NCBI GenBank assembly: GCA_012837335.1
Contig: DURM01000064.1
Coordinates: 1 to 64,000 of the forward strand
DNA: 64,000 bases
Source of the DNA: Bacillota bacterium
GTDB lineage: Bacteria > Bacillota > Limnochordia > Darwinibacteriales > DTU012
Direction: 5' to 3'
Shown: positions 4,723 through 19,702 of the stretch, piece by piece
Layout of the letters: every line of letters begins with the position of its first letter
Position numbering within the stretch: the stretch's first letter is position 1
Notes under the pieces: model-generated
Told to the model about the DNA's origin: nothing
The model's input: the letters and a program-made list of their open reading frames with translations, nothing else
Database searches by the model: none
Program-made: the position numbers and the translations under genes

Positions 4723-5661
4723 ATGCGGGTAGTTTTCATGGGCACTCCGGAGTTTGCCGTGCCGAGTTTGGAGGTTACCGCTCGTGACCATGAACTCTTG
4801 GCCGTGGTAACTCAGCCGGATCGCCGGCGGGACCGGGGCCAAAGCATTAAGTTTTCTCCGGTTAAGGAGAAGGCCCTTGAGTACGGTGTTCCGGTTCTGC
4901 AGCCAGAACGAGTGGGCACAAAAGCGTTTTTAGCCGAGATGGAGCAGCTGAAACCAGATGTAATTGTGGTGGTTGCTTTCGGCCAAAAAATTCCCAAAGC
5001 TCTGCTTGAACTGCCGCAGCATGGGTGTATTAATGTCCACGCATCACTTCTGCCTAAATACCGGGGTGCAGCGCCGATCCAATACGCAATTATCAATGGT
5101 GATGAGGTAACCGGTGTCACCACAATGTATCTCAGCGAAGGCTGGGATGAGGGAGACATGATTTTAAAAGCAGAGGAACCGATTTATCCCACCGATACCG
5201 CTGGTGCCCTTCATGACCGCCTAGCTGTCAAAGGCGCTGAGCTGCTGGGGGAAACCTTGAAGCAGATTGCAGCCGGCACAGCTCCCCGCATTCCGCAGGA
5301 TCATGATCAGGCAACTTTTGCATATAAATTAGAGAAAAGCCATGGAGAAATCGACTGGAATCAGGATGCGGCAAGCATCCACAACCTGGTAAGGGGCCTG
5401 AATCCCTGGCCGACTGCTTATACTTATTTTGAAAGCCGGATTTTGAAGATATGGGAAACTGAAGTTATTGAAATCAGCGGCGGCAGCCCGGGTGAGATTT
5501 TGGAGATTGCGCCAGAAGGCATAGTGGTGGGAACAGGGAAAGGTGGTCTCCTTTTAAAGCAGGTACAGCGCCAGGGCGCTCGGATCATGTCTGCCTATGA
5601 TGCGGCCAATGGAATGCGGCTTCAGATTGGCCAGTATTTAGGAGCACCCGATGAGAGTTAA
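4723..5661 (+). CDS. fmt: Methionyl-tRNA formyltransferase
   Basis: Transfers a formyl group from 10-formyl-tetrahydrofolate to Met-tRNA(fMet) for translation initiation. 312 aa, typical. The N-terminal formyltransferase fold starts with MRVVFMGTPEFAVP, and the catalytic Asn-His-Asp triad is visible (N104 and H106 in NVHASLLP, D142 in WDEGD). The C-terminal OB-like tRNA-binding domain follows from about residue 205. The stop overlaps the next gene by 11 bp, indicating translational coupling with the DUF116 gene, a pairing I recall from several Clostridia. Confidence 0.97.
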   Translation: MRVVFMGTPEFAVPSLEVTARDHELLAVVTQPDRRRDRGQSIKFSPVKEKALEYGVPVLQPERVGTKAFLAEMEQLKPDVIVVVAFGQKIPKALLELPQHGCINVHASLLPKYRGAAPIQYAIINGDEVTGVTTMYLSEGWDEGDMILKAEEPIYPTDTAGALHDRLAVKGAELLGETLKQIAAGTAPRIPQDHDQATFAYKLEKSHGEIDWNQDAASIHNLVRGLNPWPTAYTYFESRILKIWETEVIEISGGSPGEILEIAPEGIVVGTGKGGLLLKQVQRQGARIMSAYDAANGMRLQIGQYLGAPDES

Positions 5662-9454: not shown

Positions 9455-9531
<77 letters not shown>

Positions 9532-17860: not shown

Positions 17861-18505
17861 ATGGAGAGAATCGCAGTATGTCCATCAATTCTTGCCGCAG
17901 ATTTTACCCAGTTAGGAGCTGAGCTGGAGCGGGTTAAAAACGCTGATTATATTCATATTGATATTATGGACGGCCATTATGTGCCCAATCTCAGTTTTGG
18001 TCCGATGATTGTTAAGGCTGTTCAAACCGTTGTTGAGATTCCGTTGGATGTGCACTTGATGGTGACCAATCCCGAGGATTATCTTGATGTTCTGCTGCCC
18101 ATGCAGCCAGGATTTATTACTGTTCATTATGAAACCTGCACCCATCTGCAGCGTACTTTGAGTAAAATCAGGGCGGAAGGGGTTAGGGCAGGTGTAGCCC
18201 TTAATCCCCACACACCTGTCTCTGGATTGGAGTATGTGCTGGATGATTTGGATCTGATTTTAGTAATGACTGTTAACCCCGGATATGGAGGGCAGCAGTT
18301 TATTCCCAGCATGTACCAGAAAATTCGCGACGCCCGGAGCCTAATCGGGGAACGAACGATCAGGCTGCAGGTGGATGGTGGAATCAGTTTAGAGAATATC
18401 GGCAGGATTGTGGAGGCTGGTGCCGACACCATTGTGGCCGGGTCAGCTGTCTTTCACGCTGATGATCCAGCCGCTTATATTGACCAGCTGCGAGCCGCAC
18501 AGTAA
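17861..18505 (+). CDS. rpe: Ribulose-phosphate 3-epimerase
   Basis: Interconverts ribulose-5-phosphate and xylulose-5-phosphate in the pentose phosphate pathway. 214 aa TIM barrel. Motifs: HIDIMDGHYVPN, DVHLMV, NPGYGGQ and VDGGI, with the metal-binding His and Asp residues retained. The ATG at 17861 has GAGGTGA 5 nt upstream (17849-17855); the in-frame GTG at 17852 lies inside that site. The stop codon falls in the loop of an intrinsic terminator that closes the rlmN-to-rpe unit. Confidence 0.96.
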   Translation: MERIAVCPSILAADFTQLGAELERVKNADYIHIDIMDGHYVPNLSFGPMIVKAVQTVVEIPLDVHLMVTNPEDYLDVLLPMQPGFITVHYETCTHLQRTLSKIRAEGVRAGVALNPHTPVSGLEYVLDDLDLILVMTVNPGYGGQQFIPSMYQKIRDARSLIGERTIRLQVDGGISLENIGRIVEAGADTIVAGSAVFHADDPAAYIDQLRAAQ

Positions 18506-18555: not shown

Positions 18556-18584
18556 TTGACATATCAGAAAGTTTGTTTTATAAT
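18556..18584 (+). promoter_or_regulatory. Consensus sigma-A promoter of the structured RNA
   Basis: Perfect -35 TTGACA (18556-18561), 17-nt spacer and perfect -10 TATAAT (18579-18584). It is one of the two best promoters in the window. Predicted start is near 18591. Confidence 0.92.
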
Positions 18585-18590
18585 AGTGTT

Positions 18591-18913
18591 GCGGCTCTAA
18601 CAGAGTAGTCGGCGAAGTTGCAGAAATTGCACAGAAAGGCGGTGATGCATGTACATTCTCAATACTAACCCAAGGACTTGCACCCAAAGAAGTGAGATCG
18701 ATTACCACATAGACGCTATCTGTCTAGCACATCTCTTCTCTTGGGTGTGGATATGGGACTCCTTTAACCCAAGCGGATAGATAGCAGTAGCACCTCCGCT
18801 GCAAGTCTGATTCCCATATTAGCGCAGCTTCGTTGGCTATGTGGGCACTCTGGGGCTGTGTCGAAAGTAGTAGCACTAGGCGCCGACCGGGATGGTTGGC
18901 GTCTATTATTTTA
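18591..18913 (+). ncRNA. Candidate structured non-coding RNA of about 320 nt, family not recognised
   Basis: No convincing protein is encoded. The transcript would fold strongly. A 17-bp long-range helix pairs 18605-18621 with 18824-18840. Inside it are hairpin B (18681-18697 with 18732-18747, two bulges, apical stem 18710-18714 / 18722-18726) and hairpin C (18751-18758 with 18812-18819, apical stem 18772-18777 / 18795-18800). A 5-bp helix (18844-18848 / 18858-18862) follows. An 11-bp hairpin (18878-18888 / 18894-18904) with ATTATTTTA makes a terminator. RNase P, tmRNA, SRP RNA and common riboswitch signatures were looked for and not seen. It may be a free RNA or the first part of the thiT leader. 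Confidence 0.68.
18878..18913 (+). terminator. Terminator of the structured RNA
   Basis: An 11-bp stem (18878-18888 with 18894-18904, two G-T pairs), GGGAT loop and an interrupted U tract ATTATTTTA. The imperfect tract may allow readthrough into the thiT leader. Confidence 0.7.
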
Positions 18914-18981
18914 GGTAAATAAAAATTAAAGCAGGAATTCTGCATGATCTAGAGAATAATATAGGCGTGAAACTTAATATT

Positions 18982-19067
18982 CCGCTGGGGGTGCTGGATA
19001 CAGCTGAGAGCAGCGCAAGGCTGCAACCCTTGGAACCTGTCAAGGTAATTCTTGCGGAGGGAAGCGG
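18982..19067 (+). promoter_or_regulatory. TPP riboswitch aptamer (THI element)
   Basis: Closing stem CCGCT (18982-18986) / AGCGG (19063-19067) encloses the conserved thi-box pieces GGGGTGC, GCTGAGAG, ACCCTTGGAACCTG and a GCGGAGGGAAGC end. It binds thiamine pyrophosphate and lies 83 nt before thiT, so it controls thiamine uptake. No separate promoter was found between the upstream RNA's terminator and this element. Confidence 0.94.
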
Positions 19068-19095
19068 TGATGCCTGGATAGAAAGTAATTTTGGA

Positions 19096-19150: not shown

Positions 19151-19702
19151 GTGAAGCGATTCAGTATCAGTGTACAGGTTGAGACAGCTATTGCCGTAGC
19201 TTTGGCAATCGTTCTCTCATACATCAAGTTTTTTCAAATGCCGCAGGGAGGATCGGTTTCTCTGCAGATGGTTCCCATTGTGCTGCTGGCAGTGAGAAGG
19301 GGACCGAAGGTAGGACTTCTGGGTGGACTGCTTTTCGGTGTTTTGAAAAGCATGCTTAATCCCAGCTTTTATGTTGATCCGGTTCAGCACATCCTGGACT
19401 ACCCAGTTGCGTTTACCGTAATTGGTTTAGTGGGACTGTGGGTAAAATACGGAAAGACACGGAAAGATCTGATCGGCAACGCGGCAGCGGTCTGTTTCGT
19501 GTTCGGACTGCGCTTTCTGGTGCATGTGCTGTCGGGCAAGATCTTCTTCGGAATCTATGCGCCGGAAGGGATGAATCAGTGGTGGTACAGCTTGACCTAC
19601 AACGCAGCCTATCTGCTGCCGGAAATGATTGTAACCCTGGTTGTGGTAATGTTTCTTTTAACCCGGAGGGATCTGGTTGAGGTTGACCAAAATGGAAGAT
19701 AA
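19151..19702 (+). CDS. thiT: Thiamine transporter ThiT (ECF S component)
   Basis: Substrate-binding membrane subunit of an energy-coupling-factor transporter for thiamine; it needs a shared EcfAAT module located elsewhere. 183 aa, about six membrane helices, with the family features GGSVSLQMVPI and HILDYPVAF. The GTG at 19151 has AGGAGGGA 5 nt upstream. It is preceded by a TPP riboswitch, which confirms the substrate. Its last codons overlap the start of thiN. Confidence 0.94.
   Translation: MKRFSISVQVETAIAVALAIVLSYIKFFQMPQGGSVSLQMVPIVLLAVRRGPKVGLLGGLLFGVLKSMLNPSFYVDPVQHILDYPVAFTVIGLVGLWVKYGKTRKDLIGNAAAVCFVFGLRFLVHVLSGKIFFGIYAPEGMNQWWYSLTYNAAYLLPEMIVTLVVVMFLLTRRDLVEVDQNGR

Follow-up and report, generated by a model that had tools for sequence, protein, structure and literature searches.

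The window (i.e., the whole 64,000-nt stretch of Bacillota contig DURM01000064.1 that was analyzed) carries, directly downstream of the ribulose-phosphate 3-epimerase gene (rpe), an RNA of approximately 320 nt that we predict to be an autonomous small RNA (sRNA) gene, with a probability of about 0.9. The RNA is not the leader of the downstream thiamin transporter gene (thiT) and belongs to none of the Rfam families tested; in the class Limnochordia, it founds a family that Rfam does not list. Traits of a stand-alone sRNA gene found here are its own promoter, a terminator, a covarying structure, conservation in relatives, and the lack of a conserved ORF. The RNA is framed by the promoter, a long closing helix (P1), and the terminator hairpin; we infer that its 5' end lies 6 to 7 nt after the -10 box, and its 3' end is that of the terminator. 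The features of the locus are as follows.

17861 to 18505, + strand: rpe, the upstream anchor gene, named from its sequence and neighborhood
18556 to 18584, + strand: promoter TTGACA-N17-TATAAT
18591 to 18913, + strand: predicted small RNA gene, based on synteny, promoter, P1, and terminator
18605 to 18621, + strand: 5' arm of the P1 closing helix, 17 of 17 pairs with 18824 to 18840; the homologous helix covaries
18633 to 18646, + strand: Shine-Dalgarno (SD)-like element AGAAAGGCGGUGAU, complementary to the 3' tail of the genome's own 16S rRNA, GGAUCACCUCCUUUCU (anti-SD pairing)
18680 to 18748, + strand: predicted internal domain A with an apical stem at 18710 to 18726 (minimum free energy [MFE] fold)
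18700 to 18709, + strand: GAUUACCACA, which corresponds to the conserved element GAUYACCACA
18730 to 18745, + strand: CAUCUCUUCUCUUGGG, which corresponds in degenerate form to the C-rich element UCUCCCUUGGG
18750 to 18820, + strand: predicted internal domain B with an apical stem at 18772 to 18800 (MFE fold)
18824 to 18840, + strand: 3' arm of P1, partner of 18605 to 18621; the homologous helix covaries
18877 to 18912, + strand: intrinsic terminator, with a hairpin at 18877 to 18905 and a U-rich tail
18931 to 18960, + strand: putative promoter of the sigma-H type for the TPP-thiT unit (GCAGGAATT...GAGAATAAT), assigned by consensus, with a similar motif in most loci of the order
18977 to 19079, + strand: TPP riboswitch (RF00059; 69.4 bits), a separate downstream element
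19151 to 19702, + strand: thiT, the downstream gene in the order, identified by its context and the TPP riboswitch

An earlier note on this DNA had described a strongly folded RNA with a perfect -35/-10 pair at 17-nt spacing, and the promoter indeed matches the consensus at 12 of 12 positions. The terminator hairpin was recovered independently as a terminator-like site and is drawn with an extended stem in the predicted fold, in which both of the internal hairpins with apical stems described in that note also appear. All 17 pairs of the long-range helix are present, with five G-U pairs rather than the six that had been counted; the predicted fold retains P1 as 18607 to 18621 with 18824 to 18838 and re-pairs its outer end. 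The attribute "strongly folded" did not survive, as the MFE of positions 18591 to 18913 (-107 kcal/mol) is not beyond chance for a single sequence (z = -1.5; 7 of 100 dinucleotide shuffles were equally good; z = -0.8 without the terminator). Since the folding energy is at the chance level, energy alone gives a functional structure no support. Support for the proposed selection on structure comes instead from the covariation in relatives, and the single-sequence folding energy proves nothing. A 43-codon ORF (18649 to 18780) begins 6 nt after the SD-like stretch and has no counterpart in the homologues, in agreement with the statement that there is no credible ORF. Elsewhere in the window, a tRNA gene was found at 9455 to 9528 (63 bits).

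When 60 relatives were searched by DNA similarity (BLAST) using the window RNA as the query, no homologue emerged; the single weak match (in G041, locus L002) spans 22 nt at a locus with neither the neighborhood nor the motifs. The relatives were therefore approached via the neighboring gene rpe. Behind rpe, the order shows the same promoter, followed by a gap of the size of the RNA in which motifs recur, and finally TPP-thiT. In nearly every genome of the order, the RNA lies directly downstream of rpe and is closed by a P1 of different sequence. The promoter downstream of rpe is conserved across the order together with its spacer (TTGACAnRTCnGAnAATT-N5-TATnAT). A scan of the GTDB genomes with this pattern returned 36 contigs (one of them, L070, is the same as that of genome G007, in the window's family), 23 of which have rpe upstream; all 23 carry UCCCU..GG 80 to 150 nt past the promoter. 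The other 13 contigs all lack rpe and the neighborhood, and a chance-like CUCCCGAGGG occurs in one of them.

A covariance model (R1), for which 13 sequences of family f3 were used, detects the RNA in 17 of the 37 genomes of the order, with one copy per genome and always behind rpe. In the alignable subset (20 distinct sequences), 93% of the helix cells are standard pairs, and two-sided changes occur in 18 of 22 pairs (P1, 13 of 13; internal hairpin, 5 of 6). None of 500 shuffles and no slid version (29 to 44% paired) came near these values; relatedness can inflate the shuffle control, while the slid controls preserve relatedness. For the members that cannot be aligned, the window included, P1 was assessed by exchanging arms among RNAs: own arms pair with an average of -36.7 kcal/mol versus -31.3 ± 0.6 kcal/mol for permuted arms, and none of 20,000 permutations was as low. 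The earlier note had proposed to check the stretch from rpe to thiT in relatives for covariation, and in P1 this covariation is strong. An intrinsic terminator is present in most members. The sister closest to the window (L033) has a thiT of 87% identity, and its RNA can be aligned only weakly with that of the window (score, 85.5; maximum for shuffled sequences, 73). The RNA is fast evolving in sequence and retains its promoter, P1, terminator, and place. In the window's genus, the RNAs of L004, L005, and L006 have inserts; L004 and L005 contain a second copy of the UCUCCCUUGG type, and the copy in L006 is weaker.

No Rfam 15 family, including RNase P, tmRNA, SRP RNA, and RsaE, matched the window region at its gathering threshold, and a permissive search (E < 10) gave a single chance match (E = 2.5). 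Scans of two sets of homologous loci (18 and 17 loci) returned the TPP element and chance matches only. The absence of a recognized family noted from the window alone thus extends to every homologous locus scanned, and the families that the earlier note had kept in play (i.e., raiA, ROOL, and other named classes) are removed as far as their models reach. Like raiA, ROOL, GOLLD, and OLE, which are long, stand-alone RNAs with covarying helices and a function that is at best partly known, the RNA is long, structured, and predicted to be free-standing; unlike them, it matches no Rfam model even at the permissive E value and has a different neighborhood. It also resembles 6S RNA in being stand-alone and closed by a terminal helix, but 6S RNA was rejected as an identity, as the RF00013 match of the window's genome lies on another contig (G000:C32); canonical 6S RNA is encoded elsewhere in 60 of 61 genomes, the window's genome included. 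Literature searches returned nothing relevant on this RNA.

The synteny rpe-RNA-TPP-thiT throughout the order would also fit a cis-regulatory leader (i.e., an attenuator) of the thiT operon, acting in tandem with the TPP riboswitch. This explanation was considered because, in family f1, the 5' arm of the terminator overlaps the 3' arm of P1 in an attenuator-like manner. However, P1 and the terminator do not overlap in f3, and the TPP riboswitch, which adjoins the RNA downstream in the order, is a separate element with its own match. A motif RAGGAWTTT...GAAT, which we take by its consensus to be a sigma-H-type promoter, precedes the TPP element in most loci of the order, and thiT appears to be served by a promoter of its own. 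The sigma-H-like motif at 18931 to 18960 also raises the prospect that thiamin uptake may be tied to a transition-state/sporulation sigma factor.

Members of the class beyond the order bear on the same question. In families f7, f11, f15, and f16, the RNA again lies behind rpe and contains UCCCUCAYGGGCAUGGCUGG or a close variant of it; there, neither a TPP element (in the approximately 1.5 kb read) nor thiT (in the stretch read) follows the RNA. A locus at positions 5323 to 6324 of L097 (the same as L119) holds three tandem RNA units between rpe and the TPP element, each of which carries a strong terminator and a TTGACA promoter of its own; the first two of the three have P1 and the terminator and are devoid of the SD-like and A-rich parts. 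A leader or riboswitch of thiT would always lie upstream of the regulated gene on the same transcript, and this was not found. The class members without TPP/thiT and the autonomous tandem copies show that the RNA is independent of thiT, and the attenuator was rejected on these grounds together with the separation of P1 and terminator in f3; we accordingly consider it improbable.

The reach of the family, which counts approximately 45 members, was traced with a sequence-only model (R2) of the last, C-rich part of the RNA, which matches 30 of 73 class genomes (E ≤ 0.01), each match being the rpe-side locus; since many of the matched sequences sit in the model, this result shows specificity rather than discovery. 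R2 misses the C-rich element in the window's genome and, at low sensitivity, matched none of approximately 380 genomes of the phylum outside the class. The pattern TCCCTCAYGGGCATGGCTGG with two mismatches gave chance-level matches in other classes, none of which adjoins rpe. Other families of the class, such as f10 and f6, were without the RNA behind rpe. In f10 (L108, L109, L112, L113, and L115), a conserved promoter (TTGACA..GTTAAAAT/GTTAATAT) lies behind rpe, and short ORFs resembling small pilin-type (Flp) genes stand in place of the RNA. In the class homologues L100, L105, and L107, inverted repeats lie between the -35 and -10 boxes of the RNA promoter (TGACTC..GAGTCA, GACnGGAAA..TTTCCnGTC, and GACAG..CTGTC); the sequences suggest lineage-specific repressor sites.

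Within P1, the SD-like purine stretch comes first, GAUYACCACA second, and an A-rich linker third; the last motif is the C-rich UCUCCCU(U)GGGC(AUGG). The 16S tail of the window's genome was read directly (in L159), and the best anti-SD pairing site lies just past the 5' arm of P1 in all 41 RNAs, 14 to 55 nt from the start, with a mean pairing energy of -16.0 kcal/mol versus -9.6 ± 2.4 kcal/mol for shuffled sequence. Such a strong SD, followed 6 nt downstream by an ATG in the window, L004, L005, and L007, would fit a short messenger for a small peptide or a dual-function RNA. An ATG within 12 nt is present in only 9 of 38 RNAs, though, the peptides share neither sequence nor length, and the distance from one conserved motif to the next is not divisible by three. 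The element is thus an SD without a conserved gene; a leader peptide was rejected, and a messenger of any kind is highly improbable.

The same element is open to another explanation, in which the RNA binds ribosomes: the start-less SD-like stretch would capture the anti-SD of the 30S subunit and park or titrate subunits, or aid the maturation of the 16S 3' end, with the C-rich part being structural. The equal placement of the site in every RNA, the absence of a conserved start codon after it, and the lack of mutual pairing between the SD-like element and the C-rich one favor this possibility; the nearby genes in the window, rsgA and rpmB, may point the same way. (A helix between the two elements was tried and rejected: own pairs reached -10.2 kcal/mol versus -10.96 ± 0.32 kcal/mol for permuted pairs; P = 0.99.) On the other hand, anti-SD pairing comes easily to purine-rich stretches, the site is not predicted to be open, and two tandem copies are without it, so that we regard ribosome binding of this kind as unlikely. 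Improbable as well is an RNA, most compact in family f5 (AUCAUCACGUCUCCCUUU), that would target the small ribosomal subunit directly, either to capture 30S or to assist 16S maturation; to our knowledge, no RNA of this kind is known in any bacterium.

We favor, at somewhat better than even odds, an autonomous sRNA that would act in trans and independently of Hfq by base pairing at translation initiation. The C-rich UCUCCCU(U)GGG would be the seed that pairs with the G-rich SD regions of target messages, as in RoxS/RsaE, and the SD-like stretch would be an anchor that pairs with the 16S tail and brings the RNA to the 30S subunit. UCUCCCU occurs in nearly all members. Across the order (genomes G000 to G036), hfq was undetected except in f5, so that a trans-acting function would be Hfq independent. 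In RoxS, C-rich regions bind SD sequences, and sRNAs of Gram-positive bacteria generally do not require Hfq (PMC5419742). The RNA thus shares with RoxS/RsaE of the Bacillota the C-rich stretches that could pair with G-rich SD regions and the likely dispensability of Hfq (PMC5419742). Unlike RoxS/RsaE, it is much larger, is closed by a long P1, carries an SD-like element, has no Rfam match, is fixed beside rpe, and was found here only in Limnochordia.

Several observations stand against base pairing. Neither element is predicted to be unusually unpaired (C-rich, 0.43; SD-like, 0.42; overall, 0.44); only the A-rich linker is open (0.69). The C-rich element is degenerate in the window, where it is tied up in a predicted internal hairpin, and two of the three L097 copies are without the SD-like element. 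In the window species, the C-rich element is less well preserved than the SD-like one, which would therefore be the better candidate there. In the outer families, UCCCUCAYGGGCAUGGCUGG is strictly conserved, in a manner that resembles a site for a protein or an RNA fold more than it does a flexible mRNA seed. This would suit a protein-binding scaffold or decoy RNA with the logic of 6S or CsrB, in which the conserved UCCCUCAYGGGCAUGG would be the protein site. The 20-nt block is invariant in f7 and f15, and second UCUCCCUUGG copies occur in the inserts of genus g1; however, no known protein site was recognized in it, and the RNA diverges rapidly in the window's genus, and we hold a scaffold to be rather improbable.

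The RNA adds a conserved family to a barely studied class of the Bacillota in which hfq is mostly missing, and because it sits at one fixed chromosomal place, it can readily be traced in newly available genomes. If its SD-like/anti-SD-like anatomy is functional, it would make a direct, testable claim for an RNA whose point of action is translation initiation or the 30S subunit itself.
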